Below are positions 2,739 through 10,507 of a DNA stretch of 64,000 nucleotides, one piece after another. Origin of the DNA: Sorangium aterium. Lineage in GTDB: Bacteria > Myxococcota_A > Polyangia > Polyangiales > Polyangiaceae. The stretch is taken from positions 1,054,001-1,118,000 of the forward strand of contig NZ_JAQNDK010000002.1 in assembly GCF_028368935.1 (NCBI RefSeq). The letters run 5' to 3'. The notes beneath the pieces were generated by a model. That model saw nothing but the letters and a program-made list of their open reading frames with translations, was not told the origin of the DNA and searched no databases. Positions within the stretch are counted from its first letter, which is position 1. The number at the start of each line of letters is the position of its first letter. The translations under genes and the position numbers were made by a program.

Positions 2739-2774
2739 CGCATGCGTCGCTTGCCGTTGATCGGTCAGATTGGG

Positions 2775-2825
2775 CTTCCGTTGCGACGTTCGCTGGGCGC
2801 ATCCTTCGTTGCGGAGCTGGCGCGC
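2775..2825 (-). pseudogene. Relic of the RHS deaminase toxin tip
   Basis: On the minus strand this stretch translates as ARQLRNEGCAQRTSQRK. The deaminase tip of the RHS gene (codons at 5670-5720) reads ARQIRNEGDAQRTAQGK, so 13 of 17 residues match. By direct alignment 42 of 51 nucleotides match. A stop codon in the same frame lies about 10 codons upstream, and the frame runs straight into the start of the 811-residue gene ending at 303, so no intact toxin domain can be made. It appears to be what remains of a second toxin tip after a tandem duplication of tip plus STAND-like gene and internal deletion. Homology outside these 51 bases is weak. Confidence 0.6.
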
Positions 2826-2901
2826 CGTCTCCCCTCGCGGAAGCTTTTACCGCGCCACCGGGGGCGCGTCGGCGTGAGGCTTTCCGCGCCGATAGCGGCG
2901 C

Positions 2902-5337
2902 TCAGGGGAACCACGCCGCGACCTGCACCACCACGCGCGCCGCGCCGGCTAGGCCATCGTCGCCCGCGAGCGCAGCGATGAGCGGCGCAAGCTTCACGAG
3001 GCTCACGCCGTCGCCCGCGAGCGCGGCAGATCGGATGTCTGCGGCGAGCGCGTCGAGCAGGAGACCGAGCGCCGCGACGGCCTCTTCGGCCGGGAAATGG
3101 CGGGCAAGCGGGAGCAGCTCGAGCAGGCGGTCCGGCTCGTCGGCGCCGAGGCGCAAGGCGAGGGAAAGGGCGCGGCGCGTGAGCTCGGGCGCGTGCGCGG
3201 GATCGTAGCGTGCCAGGAAGCCGAGGGCGACCTGGTGGTGGGCGTCACTGAGCGGCGCGATCCAGTCGAGCACCGCGTCGCTGTCGCCCGTCGCTGCGAA
3301 CCAGGGGCCCACGTCGAAGAGTAGCCCGTAGCGCTCGAGCGGCTCGGCCTTCCGAACGGCCTCGTCGATGCGCGCCCGCAGCCGCGCCGGCTCCGCGGCG
3401 AAGGGGAGGCTCCGGGCCAGCGCCCGCACGCGCGACGCGACTGACAGCGCTTCGAGCAGGTCGTCGGCGGGATCGCCCAGCGCGATGAGGCGCGGGATCA
3501 GCTCCTCGAAGAGCTTGGCGGCCCGTTCACCGAACTGGGGCGCGAGCGCCGCTGCGCGGCGGGCCTCCGGGGCGTCGAGGAACGGCACGAGCTGCGTGAG
3601 CCTCCAGTGCTCGTCCAGGTTGTATGGGTCGGGGTGCTGCTCCAGCGCGGCGAACGCGGTGCGCACGCGCTCGGGATCGCCAAGGGCCCGCGCGAGCGCG
3701 GCGAGCACCTGCGCTCGCGCGGGCGCAGGCAGCTCCTCCGCGTCGGGCCAGAGCGCCTCGGCGACGGCGCGCGGAAAATCGCTGACGAAGACCTCGGCAC
3801 GGCCAGGATCTCCGGCGCCGTCGCGGAGGCTTCTGAGCGCCTCGCGCGCGACGGCGATCCCTTCGTCCGGAGGCAACCCCTTCGCCATGAAGAGCATCTG
3901 GTGCGCTCGATCCTCCGCGTTCTCCGTGGTCCGAAACGCGGCGAGCGCTTCCCGCGCGAACGCGTATCCCGCCTCGCCCCCGACGACCTCGGCGAGGCTC
4001 AGGAATGCGTCGCCGCGGAAGTCGGCCTCCGGGATGCGTCGTGCGGCGTCTTCGGTCCACGCGAGCACCTCGGCGCGCGCCGGGCCGGCCGTCATCGCCG
4101 CGCCGAGCGCGGTGAGCGCCCTGGCCTGATCTCGCGCATCCGCGATCGGCGTTTGCCGAGTCATCGGCTCGACGCCCACGGGAGCATCGTGGTCCTCGCG
4201 GTCGGCGTATGAGTTCACGCTCGCCTCGACCAGGGCCGCACGCACCGCGAGCGCCATGGCTTCGTGAGCCGCCGGAAGCGCCTCCACGGCGTGGCGGCGC
4301 ACACGCTCGAGATCGGCGACGAAGCCGAGATAGCCCTCGGGCCGAGCCATCCAGCGGGCGAGGTGCTCCTCGGTGACCAGCGCGGCGAATGCCTGGAGCG
4401 GCGCGGCGGCCTGCTCGAGGTGCGCGCGCACGTAGGCGCACGGATAGCCGTCCGGCGGGAGCGACAGCAGGCGGCGGATCGACGCGTCCCGCGCGCCGCG
4501 GTCGAGGCGCTCCTCCACCTCGCGCCGGGCCGCGTTCGTGCGGAATGCGTAGGTGCCATCGATGGCCGTGAGGAGCGGCTCGATCCCGGCGAGGGCGCCG
4601 TCGAGCGGGGCTCCGAGGGCGGTCGTGATCTCGTCCTCGCGAAGCCGGCCGTAGGCGACGGAGAGCAGGCCGAGGAGCCGCGCTGGCACCGCGCCGGCGG
4701 TCGCGACGATCTCCGCTGGATCGCCCGGCGCGGGCCAGGGTCGCGCTGGCAGCGGATGGATCCGCGTGCGCGCCGGATCGAAGCCGAGGCGTGGGATCCA
4801 CGCGTGGGCCGTAGCGTCGTTGCCCTCGACGGTGGCGAGCACCTTGATGCGGGGACCTACAGCGGAGAACAGCGCCGGCCAGGCGACGAGCGGCTCCGCC
4901 TCCTCCACGTCGGTGATCGCGAGCAGCAGCGGCGGCTCGCCCTCCGTCTGTCCCACGCGCAGGTGCTCTTCCGCAATCCGCATGCGCAGCCACCGAGGAG
5001 ACCCGCCACCGTAACCGGCGAGCAGCCGCGAGGTGAGCAACGCGACCAGGTCGCGTTCGAGCCTGAGATCAGGCGCGATCGGCACAAGGGTCCCAGCGTA
5101 AGTGGTGACTTCCCGCTGTGTACGGACCAGGTGGGCAGCCACGACCGCGCGTCGGCTGGGGCGCGGGCCGTGCAAGATTGCATAGGGCCGGTCTGGCTCC
5201 TCGATCCACCGGCAGAGCGTGGCCAGCGCGCCTTGCTCTCCGGGGTCGAGCGTGGCGCACAACGCCTCGTCCCAGGCGCAGCGACAGGCGCGCTCGACGG
5301 GCGCGGGGGCGGGGATTGGGGGCCGGGGTGTCATCAT
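2902..5337 (-). CDS. STAND-like NTPase-derived protein with helical repeats, copy 2
   Basis: This is the tandem paralogue of the gene at 303-2738, also 811 residues and collinear from end to end. I start it at ATG 5337 (Met-Met-Thr-Pro-Arg-Pro), because that matches the N-terminus of the other copy. The frame is open further upstream, but that extension overlaps the RHS gene. It has the same degenerate P-loop (HGPRPSRRA), a Walker-B-like LAITDVEEAEP, and winged-helix and helical-repeat regions. The start lies 8 bases after the RHS stop codon, so the two are almost certainly co-transcribed and perhaps translationally coupled. Immunity genes normally sit at exactly this position after an RHS toxin, but 811 residues is far longer than usual, so immunity is only a hypothesis. 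Membrane segments and a signal peptide are absent. Confidence 0.87.
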   Translation of the reverse strand: MMTPRPPIPAPAPVERACRCAWDEALCATLDPGEQGALATLCRWIEEPDRPYAILHGPRPSRRAVVAAHLVRTQREVTTYAGTLVPIAPDLRLERDLVALLTSRLLAGYGGGSPRWLRMRIAEEHLRVGQTEGEPPLLLAITDVEEAEPLVAWPALFSAVGPRIKVLATVEGNDATAHAWIPRLGFDPARTRIHPLPARPWPAPGDPAEIVATAGAVPARLLGLLSVAYGRLREDEITTALGAPLDGALAGIEPLLTAIDGTYAFRTNAARREVEERLDRGARDASIRRLLSLPPDGYPCAYVRAHLEQAAAPLQAFAALVTEEHLARWMARPEGYLGFVADLERVRRHAVEALPAAHEAMALAVRAALVEASVNSYADREDHDAPVGVEPMTRQTPIADARDQARALTALGAAMTAGPARAEVLAWTEDAARRIPEADFRGDAFLSLAEVVGGEAGYAFAREALAAFRTTENAEDRAHQMLFMAKGLPPDEGIAVAREALRSLRDGAGDPGRAEVFVSDFPRAVAEALWPDAEELPAPARAQVLAALARALGDPERVRTAFAALEQHPDPYNLDEHWRLTQLVPFLDAPEARRAAALAPQFGERAAKLFEELIPRLIALGDPADDLLEALSVASRVRALARSLPFAAEPARLRARIDEAVRKAEPLERYGLLFDVGPWFAATGDSDAVLDWIAPLSDAHHQVALGFLARYDPAHAPELTRRALSLALRLGADEPDRLLELLPLARHFPAEEAVAALGLLLDALAADIRSAALAGDGVSLVKLAPLIAALAGDDGLAGAARVVVQVAAWFP

Positions 5338-5345
5338 CGCGTGCG

Positions 5346-8300
5346 TCAGGTGGTGAACGGGGGGGTTGTGGAGCGCGTCGTCCGGATGTTCCGTTGTCGA
5401 GAGCGCCTCCTCTCGCCGCTCTGCGTGATGTTCCCGTCCCACCGGCCCATCTTGTTCATCTTGGTTTCCGTCTCGTCGTTTGGGCCGATCACGCCGGCCT
5501 TTGCGTCGTCCCCGATGTTGGCCGGGTGGAGGCCGAGCTCGCGGAAGATCTGCGCGCACATGGGGCAGGGCGCCATGCCCTCGCCATCCTCGTTCGTGGT
5601 CTCGATCGTTGCGCCGTTCCTGAAGCGCTTCTGAAGCTCGGCGCGCACCTCTTCATTGGTCATTTTACGCTTCCCCTGCGCTGTTCGCTGTGCGTCCCCT
5701 TCGTTGCGGATCTGGCGCGCCATCTTGTGAAGCGCGTCCACCTCCGCGCATGTTGTGTCCCCTGTCTGGGTCTCGTTGCGCGCCTTCTGCGCGTTCTTGA
5801 CGGCCTCGGTGATCGCGTCGTCCTTGCCGAACTGCTCACGCTGGGCCTCTGCCTTCGCCCCGCCGCGCTGGCCCTGGCTCTTGCCCTCGATATCGCCCGG
5901 CACCCCGCGACGGTTCTTCGGATCGGTAAAATCCTTCCCCCCGGGGTTGTCCCCGGCCGCGTTCCGGACGGTCGAGAACGGCATCAGCCCGCTCGGATCG
6001 ACGAACCGCGTCGGCGCGTTGCCTGCGTAGTCGAAGCCGTTGAAGCCGCCGTCGAGCCCCGCCGGGTCCGCGCTCAGGTACCGCCCCATCGCGGGATCGA
6101 AGTAACGGTAGCGGTTGTAGACGAGCCCCGTCTCCTCGTCCTCGTACTGGCCCGGGAAGCGGAGCGGCGTGGTGGTCCGCCCGCCCTCTTTCACCTTCGC
6201 GCCGAACGCGGATCGGTCGAGCTCGCACACCACCTCGCCCGCCGGGCCGACCAGGCGCTCCGGCGCGCCCACGTCGTCGTTGAGGTAATGGAACCACGGG
6301 CTCTCCTCGCGCCGCCCGCCCGCCATGCGCGTGTCGCGGTGGGCCCAGGGGGCGTACCGGGCCTCCTCGAAGCAGTACGTGCGCTCCTCCACCACGGGAT
6401 CCCCCGCCGCCTGCGCCACGCGCCTGATCTCGTGGACCAGCACGCCGCCGTCCCACACGAAGCGCACGCTCGACACCTCGCGCCTCCGCCCGTCGGACGC
6501 TCGCTCGAACGTGCGCTTCCCGATGCGCCGTGCGAACGGATCGTAGCTGTGCTCGACCACCCTCCCGTCGGGCCTCTCGACCGCGGCGAGCAGCCCGAGG
6601 GCGTTCCACGTGTACCGCGTCAACCGCCCCTCCGCGTCGCGCGCGCTCGTGAGCCTGCCCGACTCGTCCCATGCGTACGTGGTGCCGCCCTTCTGCACAA
6701 GACGGTTCCCGGCGCCGTAAGCGCGCTGCTCGCCGTCCGGCTCGTGAAGATTGCCCGCGGCGTCGTAAGCAAAGCGCTGCCCCTGGCCCCGCTCGTCGCG
6801 GACCCCCAGGAGCTGCCCCGCGGGGTCGTGCTCGAACAGCCTCCGGCCGAGCGTGTCGTCCCACGACTCGACGAGCTCCGAGCACGGCCCATAGCGGAAC
6901 GCCTGGTACACCGTCGTCCCCGGCGGGCGAGGGCCGACCCAGTCGGGCCGACCGGCGCCCGCGCTGGCCTGTCCGGGGTGGCCCACCCAGCGCTGCGCCA
7001 TGCGGCCGAGCGCGTCGTAGACGACCTGGATGCGCCCGCCATCCGGCAGCGCGCGGGCGATCTCGCGCCCGAGCGCGTCGTGCGCGACCCCGACCGCGGT
7101 GCGCCCGTCCAGCACCACCTGCGTGGCCCGGCCGCAGGCGTCCCGCGCGAAGGCGACCGCGTGGCCCAGCGAAGTCGTCCTCTGCACGACGTTCCCCATG
7201 AGATCATACGTCCGCCGCACGGTAAACAGATCGCCCGAGGCGAGCTGCCGCTCTTCAACCACCCAGCCCACGGCGTTGCGCGTGAACGTGAGCTCCCCGG
7301 CGGGCGTGACGGCGGCGATCAGCTGGCCGCAATGGTCGTACTCGAACGACTCCGTGGCGCCGTCCGGCAGGGTGCGCTGGACCAGCTGTCCGGCCGCGTC
7401 GTAGGTGAACTCGGTCATCTCGCCCGCGCCGGTCTTCTCGAGGATGAGCTGTCCGGCCATGTCGTGCCGGTAGTGCTTCTCCAGCCCGGCGAACGTCCGC
7501 TCGTACACCATGCGGCCCGCTGTGTCGTAGCGCATGAGGTACACGTCCCCCCGCGCGTTCTCGGCCCGCACGAGGCGACCCTCGCGATCGTAGCCGAGCC
7601 GGTTCACCTCGCCGTTCGGGCGGCGGATCGCGCAGACCTTGTGCAGGCCTCCCCGATCGAAGCGCGTCGAGGTGCCGTCCGGGTGGTCGACGCGCACGAC
7701 GTCCCCGTTGCGATCGTGGGCATAGCGGGTCACGCCCCCGTCCGGGTGGCGCATGGCGATGCGATCGCCCCGGTCGTTGTAGGCGTACGACGTGATGTGC
7801 CCGAGCGCGTCGCGCACCGACAGGCAACGTCCCCAATAATCGTAGACGTGCTCGGTGACGGCGCCTGTCCCGTCGATCTTCTGGATCACGTTGCCCTGCG
7901 CGTCGTGGGCGAAGCGCGTGCGCGCGCTGTTCGGCGCGACGGTCTCCGTGATGAGCCCGCGCGCCTCGATGCGCACCTCGAAGGTCGCGCCGATCGGATC
8001 GGTCCAGTACAGGGCGCCCGCGGTGCGCGTCACCTCCGTGACGCCGCCGGCCGGGTCGGTGACGCGGCGGATGTGCCCGTCCGGTTCGCGCTCGATAATG
8101 GTGGTGCGGCCCAGCGGGTCGCTCACTCGGAGCGTGCGGCCGCGGGCGTCGCGGACCCAGGTCGTGGTGGCTCCGAGCGGGTCGGTGAACGAGCGGAGAT
8201 TGCCGTTCTCGTCGTAGGTGCGGCAGTAGACGGCCCCGCCGGATACGGCCTTGTCGAGCTTTCCGAACTCGTTGGCGAAGTAGCGGTGCACGGTGATCGA

Positions 8301-9401
8301 GTCGACCACTTCCGAGTACCCGTCGTCGCCGTAGACGAGCTTGCAGTGGTAGATCCCCCAGGCCTTCGTGCCGTCGGCGAGCGTATCGGGCACGCCCTCT
8401 GCGAGGCCGAGGCGCCCCGGATCGGGGTGATCGCCCCAGGTCTCGACGCAGCGACCACGCTCGTCGTACCGGAAATGGAAGGTGAGGTCCTCGGGATCCG
8501 TGCGCGACGTCAGCCGGTGATCGTCGTAGGTGTAGCGGCTGACGCAGCCTTCCGCGTCCGTATCGGCGACGAGGTCGCCGTGCTCGTCGTAGGTATAGCC
8601 CCGGAGGGCCACCCATCTCCCTCGCTCGGGCGCGTTCTTGCACTCGAGCGCGGCGATGCGGCCGTCGGGCGCGCGCCGCAGGCGCACGACGCGGCCGGCG
8701 GCGTCGGTGAGCGACTCGACGCGCCCCTCGCGGTAGGTGAGCCGCGTCGTGTTGCCATGGGCGTCGCGCACGGCGGAGAGGCGGTATGTCGCGCCGTCGC
8801 GCTCGGAGAAGAGATAGAACGTGCCGGCGGCGTCATCGAGCACGAACCCGCTGGCGTCGCGGGTCAGCACCCAGCCGTCGGGGCCAATGCCCGCGTCCCC
8901 CTCGGCGATGGGGTCGAACGAGAGCTCCGCGCCCGTGTCGGTCCACAGCACGGTGGTCTGGCGCCGCACCTCGACGGCCCACGAGAAGGAGTGCACCCAG
9001 CCGAAGCCGAGGCCGACGTCGCGCTCGCGGGCGCTCGTGCTGTAGCGGCGCACGACCCGTAAGCCGAGGGGACCGAGCAGCTCGAGGTCGACCACGGGAT
9101 CGGTGAACACGCGGCCGGTGGCGACGTCGACGGGGTCGCCCTTCGACACCTTCCCGCTCTTCTTCGACCCGTGGTGGTTCGGGCAGCCGGAGCCGTCGCC
9201 GCCCGCGCCGCCGCAGGCCGACTTCCCCCCTCCGTCGGCGCCGTTACCCCCGTTGGAGCCGTCGGCGCCCTGGTCCTTGCCGCTCCCCTTGCCACCCTTG
9301 CCATTGCCGCCGCCGCCGCTGCCGCCGCCGCCCATGATGAAGACGCCGGGGTTCATGCCGGGGATCGCGGGGATATTCGGGACGGGGGCTGTGCGCGCCA
9401 T
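5346..9401 (-). CDS. RHS-repeat polymorphic toxin with YwqJ-like deaminase tip
   Basis: This is a 1351-residue RHS/YD-repeat protein. The start at ATG 9401 gives a Pro-rich N-terminus (MARTAPVPNIPAIPGMNPG), then a Gly/Lys linker to about residue 85. A DUF6531-like segment (about 88-160) follows, then tandem YD repeats and the conserved RHS core, ending with a DPSGL motif near residue 1138. RHS proteins form a shell that encloses a variable C-terminal toxin. Here the tip (about 1140-1351) contains Cys-Ala-Glu at 1218-1220 and Pro-Cys-Pro-Met-Cys with cysteines at 1279 and 1282. This is the zinc and catalytic pattern of the cytidine-deaminase-like fold, with Cys replacing the usual His as I recall for the YwqJ-like clade. 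The likely role is a contact-dependent toxin that deaminates nucleic acids. No classical signal peptide is seen. The PNIP..PGMNPG start resembles PAAR-like leaders of type VI effectors. Confidence 0.9.
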   Translation of the reverse strand: MARTAPVPNIPAIPGMNPGVFIMGGGGSGGGGNGKGGKGSGKDQGADGSNGGNGADGGGKSACGGAGGDGSGCPNHHGSKKSGKVSKGDPVDVATGRVFTDPVVDLELLGPLGLRVVRRYSTSARERDVGLGFGWVHSFSWAVEVRRQTTVLWTDTGAELSFDPIAEGDAGIGPDGWVLTRDASGFVLDDAAGTFYLFSERDGATYRLSAVRDAHGNTTRLTYREGRVESLTDAAGRVVRLRRAPDGRIAALECKNAPERGRWVALRGYTYDEHGDLVADTDAEGCVSRYTYDDHRLTSRTDPEDLTFHFRYDERGRCVETWGDHPDPGRLGLAEGVPDTLADGTKAWGIYHCKLVYGDDGYSEVVDSITVHRYFANEFGKLDKAVSGGAVYCRTYDENGNLRSFTDPLGATTTWVRDARGRTLRVSDPLGRTTIIEREPDGHIRRVTDPAGGVTEVTRTAGALYWTDPIGATFEVRIEARGLITETVAPNSARTRFAHDAQGNVIQKIDGTGAVTEHVYDYWGRCLSVRDALGHITSYAYNDRGDRIAMRHPDGGVTRYAHDRNGDVVRVDHPDGTSTRFDRGGLHKVCAIRRPNGEVNRLGYDREGRLVRAENARGDVYLMRYDTAGRMVYERTFAGLEKHYRHDMAGQLILEKTGAGEMTEFTYDAAGQLVQRTLPDGATESFEYDHCGQLIAAVTPAGELTFTRNAVGWVVEERQLASGDLFTVRRTYDLMGNVVQRTTSLGHAVAFARDACGRATQVVLDGRTAVGVAHDALGREIARALPDGGRIQVVYDALGRMAQRWVGHPGQASAGAGRPDWVGPRPPGTTVYQAFRYGPCSELVESWDDTLGRRLFEHDPAGQLLGVRDERGQGQRFAYDAAGNLHEPDGEQRAYGAGNRLVQKGGTTYAWDESGRLTSARDAEGRLTRYTWNALGLLAAVERPDGRVVEHSYDPFARRIGKRTFERASDGRRREVSSVRFVWDGGVLVHEIRRVAQAAGDPVVEERTYCFEEARYAPWAHRDTRMAGGRREESPWFHYLNDDVGAPERLVGPAGEVVCELDRSAFGAKVKEGGRTTTPLRFPGQYEDEETGLVYNRYRYFDPAMGRYLSADPAGLDGGFNGFDYAGNAPTRFVDPSGLMPFSTVRNAAGDNPGGKDFTDPKNRRGVPGDIEGKSQGQRGGAKAEAQREQFGKDDAITEAVKNAQKARNETQTGDTTCAEVDALHKMARQIRNEGDAQRTAQGKRKMTNEEVRAELQKRFRNGATIETTNEDGEGMAPCPMCAQIFRELGLHPANIGDDAKAGVIGPNDETETKMNKMGRWDGNITQSGERRRSRQRNIRTTRSTTPPFTT

Positions 9402-9652
9402 GCGAGCGAGCGTAATAGCGGGACAACAGCAGTGGAAATGCGCATCGTCCTCTCCACGGGCGCACAGGAGAGCACGTTGACCCGATCGGGCAGCCGCGAG
9501 GCCCATCGCGCTGCCTCCTCGTTCGGCCTGTCTCAATCCCGCTGGCATGTTCGCGCATTCCTGCGCGTCTCGCGCATTTTCGCGCTCGAGGTTGCGGCAC
9601 GGGGCGAGCTGTCGGTATCGTGCGCGCCATTCGCCCATTCAGGAGCTCTGCC
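9402..9652. other. Divergent intergenic region between RHS toxin and lipoprotein genes
   Basis: About 250 bases separate two divergent starts and must hold promoters for both. I see no convincing sigma-70 boxes. A strong ribosome binding site (AGGAG at 9641-9645) belongs to the plus-strand lipoprotein gene. Open frames here are upstream extensions of the flanking genes and have no independent support. Confidence 0.5.
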
Positions 9653-10507
9653 GTGCACAAGATCTACCTCGTCCTTTCCGCAGCATTCCTCGTCACCTCT
9701 ACGGCCTGCTCGGATGAATCCGATTCTGGCGGTACGAGTAATGACCAGGCCAGCAGCAGCAGCGCTTCGACCAGCAGCGCCTCGAGCGGTGGTACCGGGG
9801 GCAGCGGCGGGTCGGGGAGCTCGAGCGTCGGAGAAGGCGGCGCTGGTGGGGCGGGATCGACGAGCGGCTCGGGCGGCGCCGGCGAGGGCGGCGCAGGGAC
9901 CGCTGGCGGGCCCGCTACCGGGGCCGGCGGGGACCCGGGCACCTCATCCCTGGGTTTCTTCGTTTCCACCCCGAGCGACAGCGGCGGCGATCTCGGAGGG
10001 ATCGCCGGCGCGGACGCGACCTGCCAGGCGCTGGCGGCCGAAGTGGGCGCCGGCGGTCGCACGTGGCGCGCGTACCTGAGCACGAGCACGGAGAATGCCC
10101 GTGATCGCATCGGCAAGGGGCCCTGGGTCAACGCCAAGGGCGTCACGGTGGCCGCCAGTGTCGAGGCGCTGCACGCGTTGCCCGGGGGCAACCCGGAGCT
10201 CTTCGTCGATCACGAAGGCAACCGCATCAACGGCCAGTGGCAGGGCTCTCCCTCGCCGATCGAGCACGACATGCTCACCGGCTCTGCAGCGGACGGTACG
10301 GCCCTCGCCGACACGTGCAACGATTGGACGTCGTCCACCGCCACGCCCGGGCCGCAGGTGGGACACTCCGACGGGCTCGGTCCGAACATGAACGGCGGAG
10401 CCCCGTACAACTCGTGGAACTCCGTGCACGCTCCCTCCGGGTGCAGCCAGCAGCAGCTCGTGGCGGTGGGCGGCGCGGGCCGATTCTACTGCTTCGCCGC
10501 GGACTGA
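9653..10507 (+). CDS. Lipoprotein with endostatin-like (C-type-lectin fold) domain
   Basis: This 284-residue protein starts at GTG 9653, seven bases after a perfect AGGAG. An upstream in-frame GTG at 9620 lacks such a site. The N-terminus is a lipoprotein signal (hydrophobic core then STAC lipobox), followed by about 80 residues of Ser/Gly-rich linker. The C-terminal region (about 100-284) has the order GIAGADATCQ, TWRAYLS, ..NPELFVD.., DTCNDW, ..CSQQQLV, FYCFAAD. This matches the layout of collagen XV/XVIII endostatin domains (GADxxC, xxFRAFLS, xxCxxW, C-terminal Cys). Four cysteines could form the two endostatin disulfides. It probably sits in the outer or inner membrane facing the periplasm or surface. 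The ligand is unknown. The similarity is by eye and not confirmed by a profile search. Confidence 0.85.
   Translation: MHKIYLVLSAAFLVTSTACSDESDSGGTSNDQASSSSASTSSASSGGTGGSGGSGSSSVGEGGAGGAGSTSGSGGAGEGGAGTAGGPATGAGGDPGTSSLGFFVSTPSDSGGDLGGIAGADATCQALAAEVGAGGRTWRAYLSTSTENARDRIGKGPWVNAKGVTVAASVEALHALPGGNPELFVDHEGNRINGQWQGSPSPIEHDMLTGSAADGTALADTCNDWTSSTATPGPQVGHSDGLGPNMNGGAPYNSWNSVHAPSGCSQQQLVAVGGAGRFYCFAAD

Follow-up and report, generated by a model that had tools for sequence, protein, structure and literature searches.

Among polymorphic toxin systems, deaminase tips of the YwqJ family are paired with immunity proteins of the Imm6 and SUKH families, immunity proteins of the NTF2, LRR, Ank and HEAT types occur elsewhere, and tandem immunity genes are termed polyimmunity loci (portions of PMC3482391 considered here). 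In the same portions, "STAND NTPase" (nucleoside triphosphatase) appears twice, each time for endosymbiont effectors, and the word "NACHT" is absent from the part of that text covered here (300,000 of 357,715 characters). Here we analyze a 64,000-nucleotide stretch of the 13.5 Mb genome of Sorangium aterium (hereafter, the window) in which an RHS toxin gene with a predicted YwqJ-like deaminase tip is followed by two paralogous genes, P0002 and P0003, each encoding an 811-amino-acid (aa) protein that appears to descend from STAND NTPases. The association of this tip subtype with such partners is systematic in the family of soil-dwelling myxobacteria searched, and the partners are probably immunity proteins.

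The RHS toxin and its STAND-derived partner

The window RHS protein contains 16 stretches matching the Pfam profile RHS_repeat (E=5.9e-79), along with DUF6531, and its Rhs_assc_core match (E=5.2e-25) ends at residue 1139, the tip boundary. With RHS/YD repeats and a core that reaches the tip, it is an RHS polymorphic toxin. The trimmed tip matches PF14431 with 26.6 bits (E=7.6e-6), just above the cut-off of 25.9, and the whole protein scores 22.5 bits, under that cut-off; 6 of 17 tips match this profile at E<=0.01. The initial annotation had correctly described an RHS core ending in a tip with CAE and PCPMC motifs (Table 1). We take CAE to be the first zinc/active-site motif of deaminases and PCxxC the second zinc motif, CxE and PCxxC together presumably forming the signature pair. 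The alignment of 17 tips, in which the key residues of both motifs are invariant, excludes L038, L040, L133, L137 and L138 (loci other than that of the window are designated by L numbers); L138 has no CAE stretch and L040 lacks most of the tip. Judging from motifs and profile, the tip is probably a YwqJ-like deaminase acting on nucleic acid or a nucleotide. Two VgrG-like open reading frames (ORFs) directly upstream of the RHS-deaminase/STAND locus L049 (L049:2-4592) are the sole feature that suggests export of this RHS family by a type VI secretion system; no VgrG-like gene was found among the checked neighbors of the window RHS gene.

As initially annotated, the first 811-aa gene, P0002, follows eight bases after the toxin stop codon. 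Its product contains a degenerate P-loop (ILHGPRPSRRA) and a Walker-B-like motif (LLLAITDVEEA). A relative, P0004, has GPSGRGRS, LIVILDGIDEA and a NACHT match below the cut-off (E=0.02), and the L045 partner matches NPHP3_N (3.9e-11), AAA_16 (9.7e-10) and NACHT (1.1e-8), all above the cut-offs, as does the L044 partner. Alignment with these three relatives indirectly indicates that the N-terminal half of P0002 is homologous to the STAND domain, so that the degenerate STAND-like N-terminus proposed from the window DNA becomes visible through them. Because P0002 has no intact Walker A P-loop, we classify it, on its motifs, as STAND-derived rather than as an active STAND. Its AlphaFold2 (AF2) model has a mean predicted local distance difference test (pLDDT) score of 54.1 overall, with low confidence in the N-terminal half and a confident helical region at about residues 400-730; the helical solenoid begins near residue 400, which agrees with the helical repeats predicted earlier. 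In structure alignments, the solenoid reached Z scores of up to 11.6 with solenoid proteins, and unrelated helical repeats reached the same range; since such scores are common to ordinary helical arrangements, they do not settle the repeat type. A sequence search of solved structures yielded nothing convincing for P0002 or P0004, and Foldseek searches with the tip model and the P0002 model gave no telling match for either. Among PADLOC profiles, P0002 had a match at E=0.02 only, the L045 partner partial matches of up to 2.9e-8, and the solo protein L048 a partial STAND_TPR match (2.2e-16); P0004, L143 and L145 had none. No Pfam immunity family (Imm6, SUKH and others) matched P0002, P0003 or 12 relatives at E<=1, and the 14 partner proteins scanned contain no Pfam domain at its cut-off besides the NTPase domain.

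Conservation of the pairing

A partner profile (A1; seeds from the window, L006 and L007) was searched against 108 genomes of the family, with the best nine candidates per genome scored, and matched at E<=0.001 in 12 of them. At all 12 loci scoring above 66 bits, three of which are the seeds, traces of RHS lie directly upstream of the partner: a tip ORF or fragment at ten (window, L006, L038, L039, L040, L041, L042, L043, L045 and L046), a 30-residue tip relic at L044 and, at L007, where group II intron genes precede it, the N-terminal part of an RHS protein fused to the partner. In the lower score range, which is covered by L047-L050 with the G085 and G086 matches set aside, L049 is linked to a tip and L047, L048 and L050 are not. 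The A1 search of the family is incomplete, given that the tip-adjoining partners L130, L131, L133, L134 and L151 are absent from its matches.

In the reciprocal search, a tip profile built from ten partner-linked loci, with the best 28 candidates per genome of the family scored, detected 21 tips at 76 bits or more, the ten seeds included. Beyond the seeds, the 13 top-scoring tips were opened, from the highest score downward. Each of the first 11 (L128-L138), all scoring at least 76 bits, has an ORF of 330-901 aa next to it, and ten of these ORFs match the second partner profile, A2, at E<0.01; the exception, L132, groups with L128 in the partner tree (100/99). The 76-bit threshold was set after the results for the next two tips, L139 and L140, were known; the other tip opened below it is the relic L141 (58 bits), weaker matches outside the window's own genome being set aside. 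The initial annotation had named homologs of the 811-aa gene mostly away from RHS loci as a refuting outcome; the close homologs found are instead at RHS loci, in 12 of 12 cases above 66 bits when starting from partners, and 10 of the first 11 tips have a matching partner when starting from tips.

The partner start lies between -4 and +35 bases from the toxin stop, with a 4-base overlap at 9 of 22 loci; the script that assigned starts preferred the one nearest the toxin stop, and its choice at L137 was unsuitable. A space of at most 35 bases leaves no room for a further gene between toxin and partner. At L137, the tip ends in a lysine-coding run that overlaps the partner start (L137:5296-5765), and the toxin frame continues past it.

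Across the phylum, 377 genomes were searched with a 16-row partner profile (best two candidates per genome), which matched in seven; four of the seven lie outside the family. Three of these four matches (L143, L144 and L145) are solo STANDs, the stretches read containing neither an RHS nor a tip match, and the fourth, G428, was set aside. The tip profile (best eight candidates per genome) matched in 3 of the 377 genomes, each a member of the window's family; absence in the two phylum searches is to be taken as soft. Within the family searched, the link between the RHS deaminase tip and the STAND-derived partner is systematic.

The pairing is also specific among the RHS loci of this genome. DNA similar to that encoding the N-terminus of the window RHS protein (MARTAPVPNIPAIPGMNPGVF) is present at nine further loci, and, among these ten, the tips that are present differ. 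The tip subtype studied here is found at three of the ten (window, L006 and L049), each time with the partner; at L007, the core and tip are lost and the partner is retained. None of the four loci with other tips that are deaminase-like by motif (L082, L083, L085 and L086) has a partner or STAND match. A different, deaminase-like tip at L086 is directly followed by a 237-aa leucine-rich-repeat ORF (L086:4366-5076), the next same-strand gene at L085 is 877 bp away and has a SUKH-3 match just below the cut-off, no Pfam family matches the 457-aa ORF that follows L083, and no partner was identified for L082. L081 and L084 are N-terminal remnants.

P-loop status and phylogeny of the partners

In a pattern search of the 22 tip-linked first partners, GxxxxGK[ST] is kept in five (L045, L130, L134, L137 and L138), altered in the L006 partner by a change of K to R, and unmatched in 16, several of which are close relatives of P0002 or of each other. 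L044, L151 and the second partner of L039 have retained the P-loop as well, and so have five of the six relatives without RHS (L047, L048, L143, L144 and L145, with L050 lacking it). Partner lengths range from 330 aa (L135) to 990 aa. In the partner tree, whose deep branches are weak and which includes several long branches, so that it is usable for close groupings only, L047, L048, L143, L144 and L145 fall together, with the long-branched linked proteins L049 and L129 among them, and this solo-STAND group is set apart, at weakly supported depth, from the remaining toxin-linked proteins. The solo relative L048 (L048:4178-9571) is a 1798-aa protein whose N-terminal domain is a PNP_UDP phosphorylase and whose P-loop is intact; the 16 kb read at this locus gave no RHS match.

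Co-divergence and selection

Partner divergence tracks the tip, not the adjacent RHS core. For 19 of the 22 loci, pairwise distances between tips correlate with those between partners (rho 0.30, P=0.003), whereas core and partner distances do not (0.08, P=0.31); after removal of near-duplicates, the 15 non-redundant loci gave a tip-partner rho of 0.36 (P=0.0008) and a core-partner rho of -0.02 (P=0.52). The ratio of nonsynonymous to synonymous substitution rates (dN/dS) ranges from 0.25 to 0.63 in 15 partner pairs and from 0.11 to 0.26 in 4 tip pairs, which indicates that both are constrained and that partners change faster. Within the 811-aa group (five genes), dN/dS is 0.85 for residues 1-50, 0.29-0.38 for 51-400, 0.67-0.73 for 401-730 and 0.45 for 731-811; the fast-changing solenoid (401-730) would fit a surface facing a changing target. 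The possibility that P0002 and P0003 are chance ORFs was ruled out by dN/dS together with profile matches across the 811 residues.

Partner retention after toxin decay

Open partner frames stand beside broken or lost toxins at L007, L038, L040, L044, L045, L049, L130, L137, L138 and L151, and the same holds for P0003. The toxin is truncated, with an in-frame stop, at L038 (where desaturase and fumarase genes are neighbors, as at the window), broken by insertion of an IS110 transposase at L045 and split over two frames at L049; the RHS core is deleted at L130 and L137, and the CAE stretch at L138. At L151 (L151:827-4661), a second RHS gene truncated in its core precedes an open STAND partner with an intact P-loop, a loss resembling that at L007. 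Both toxin and partner are broken at L141, and the second partner of L039, behind a tip relic, is frameshifted. No opened locus combines an open toxin frame with a broken first partner. Just upstream of the fusion of RHS stump and partner at L007, two reverse transcriptase/group II intron maturase ORFs that share their C-terminus lie in tandem (L007:5076-8104).

The gap between P0002 and P0003 contains a 71-bp fossil of tip-coding DNA. It scores 77 against the L039 tip, 68 against the window tip and 46 against the L038 tip, compared with respective maxima of 32, 29 and 32 in 200 shuffles, and the best of 546 unrelated stretches compared scores 32. When tails were shortened, one of three comparisons with the window gap exceeded the shuffles, and all three did when whole tips were used. 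The corresponding gap at L038 contains the 3' end of the toxin gene. The fossil and the L038 gap together imply that P0003, too, once stood beside a toxin, and we read it as an immunity gene left after the loss of its own toxin.

Immunity proteins or sensors

The combination of tip tracking, P-loop loss and retention after toxin loss favors immunity over sensing. We consider it likely, from comparative sequence evidence, that the partners are immunity proteins of STAND descent, most of them pseudo-NTPases, which use the helical solenoid to bind the deaminase tip and neutralize it. Under this scheme, the RHS protein would act as a polymorphic toxin through its YwqJ-like deaminase tip, and the 811-aa genes would encode the immunity proteins of that toxin. 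The partners would descend from STAND/NACHT NTPases (NLR-like proteins), with the P-loop lost in many lineages, including that of the window, and the C-terminal solenoid would bind the tip stoichiometrically, blocking the deaminase in the producing cell and its kin. The suggestion in the initial annotation that the 811-aa proteins are unusually large immunity or sensing partners is supported with regard to STAND descent and linkage to RHS loci; the choice of immunity over sensing is ours and goes beyond it.

Several observations weigh against the immunity assignment or the evidence behind it. Most known immunity proteins are much smaller than the partners, and partners with intact P-loops (five first partners, together with L044, L151 and the second partner of L039) retain a motif that a pure blocker would not need; the last three slightly lower the case for immunity and slightly raise that for sensing. 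L050 is a protein of the linked type, nested in the linked group, with no RHS seen beside it, and a partner match is absent at both of the next-scoring tips, L139 (71 bits) and L140 (60 bits). The tip-partner correlation is only moderate, and partners diverge faster than their own tips. In the first test, with distances from multiple alignments and three tip boundaries that were corrected afterwards, rho was 0.20 for tip and partner (P=0.014) and 0.27 for core and partner (P=0.064), with partial values of 0.16 and 0.25; these distances were judged saturated and were therefore replaced by pairwise scores. Rapid change extends beyond the solenoid: dN/dS is highest in residues 1-50, and it is low in 731-811. 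Some broken toxin frames, such as that of L049, could be sequencing errors, and long chance ORFs are frequent in this GC-rich genome, which makes open frames alone weak evidence. For P0002 and P0003, a Pfam scan gave no match at E<=1. As to the tip, the deaminase assignment comes from profile and motifs; the AF2 model is poor (mean pLDDT 50.7, three input sequences), and structural comparison returned no fold match.

The main rival is an active sensor (guard) that detects the deaminase as it enters and sets off a response downstream, with no direct block of the toxin. NLRs recognize their targets and then trigger such responses, and the STAND ancestry, the above-threshold NACHT and NPHP3_N matches in L045 and L044, the P-loops retained by the linked partners named above and by most relatives without RHS, and the PNP_UDP domain of L048 are all compatible with this role. 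However, most tip-linked first partners have no P-loop match (several of them, as said, being close relatives of P0002), L006 carries the K-to-R change, the L135 partner has only 330 aa, and no additional Pfam domain reached its cut-off in the scanned partners. The loss of the P-loop weakens the sensor explanation, the P-loop-intact members being least affected, and we regard it as unlikely overall.

Still less probable is a chaperone or loading factor of the toxin, with immunity encoded elsewhere. Large helical solenoids can act as chaperones, but the partner begins at the toxin stop, tracks the tip and not the core, and is retained without the toxin; moreover, no other gene fits between toxin and partner, and, past P0003, the next ORF whose composition resembles coding DNA lies on the other strand. 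The least credible alternative, a single regulated defense system in which the STAND protein senses an invader and the RHS deaminase is the effector, has a parallel in the conflict systems of multicellular bacteria, which have STANDs, among them an inactive iSTAND class, as NTPase components (in the sections of PMC7159879 considered), but is at odds with partner divergence that tracks the tip and not the core, with partners that persist without toxins and have often lost their NTPase motifs, and with the two VgrG-like genes before the L049 RHS gene, which suggest export.

The immunity interpretation leaves room for a more speculative, rather improbable extension, in which a family of NLR-type receptors was recruited into toxin loci as dedicated antidotes: P-loop-intact partners (such as L045, L130, L134, L137 and L138) would be driven by nucleoside triphosphate and would switch and oligomerize upon recognition of a rival's deaminase, and P-loop-dead ones such as P0002 and P0003 would be reduced to binding decoys that record past toxins. 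Should such P-loop-intact receptors exist, they would amount to a bacterial effector-triggered response to a competitor's toxin. If the partners are immunity proteins, polymorphic toxin systems gain an immunity class from the NLR/STAND superfamily, and the natural series from P-loop-intact through P-loop-dead to 330-aa partners could show how a sensor turns into a plain inhibitor. Toxins aimed at competitors and NLR-like defense would then be joined in the same loci.

Features of the locus

The initial annotation covered positions 2739-9401, which span the RHS gene together with P0002; P0003 (303-2738) is beyond this range. A divergent gene with a DUF1554 match adjoins the RHS gene (window positions 9620-10507).

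Table 1. Coordinates of the toxin, its predicted tip and the partner genes in the window
Feature	Position	Strand	Details
RHS polymorphic toxin, 1351 aa	5346..9401	-	ORF: ATG at 9401, stop 5346-5348
C-terminal tip, predicted YwqJ-like deaminase domain, 212 aa	5349..5984	-	PF14431 match
CAE motif	5742..5750	-	C and E invariant in 17/17 aligned tips
PCPMC motif (PCxxC)	5556..5570	-	P, C and C invariant in 17/17 aligned tips
Spacer, 8 bases, toxin stop to partner ATG	5338..5345	-	
P0002, STAND-derived partner, predicted immunity protein, 811 aa	2902..5337	-	
Intergenic gap, 163 bp, with toxin-tip fossil	2739..2901	-	
Tip-coding fossil, 71 bp	2760..2830	-	58 identities to L039 tip; part EGCAQRTSQRKPNLTD vs EGDAQRTAQGKPKMTN
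P0003, second 811-aa paralog, 79% identical to P0002	303..2738	-	

Comparison with known systems

The system belongs to a known kind, the RHS toxin-immunity pair, and a STAND-derived partner of an RHS deaminase may be a previously undescribed variant: among the matches listed in our literature searches, for which subscription papers were mostly outside the scope, there was no description of STAND-derived immunity proteins of RHS toxins. Compared with STAND/NACHT NTPases (PF05729, PF24883 and PF13191), the partner relatives share the homologous N-terminal domain followed by helical repeats, whereas P0002 and P0003 have no P-loop, the proteins are placed as toxin partners, and those scanned carry no fused effector domain. 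The iSTAND proteins of vWA-MoxR ternary systems, as described in the sections of PMC7159879 considered and likened here by description only, are also NTPase-dead STANDs of a conflict system in multicellular bacteria but adjoin MoxR and vWA genes rather than RHS tips. Imm-HEAT is likewise a helical repeat protein presumed to bind a toxin as its immunity protein; in the portions of PMC3482391 considered, it is listed with Ntox34 and Tox-REase-7, not with YwqJ, and no STAND-derived N-terminal half is described. Further close counterparts are the RHS polymorphic toxin-immunity pairs of the same source, which have the same RHS core, variable C-terminal tip and accompanying immunity gene; there, the immunity proteins of YwqJ toxins are Imm6 or SUKH, whereas here the partner is STAND-derived.
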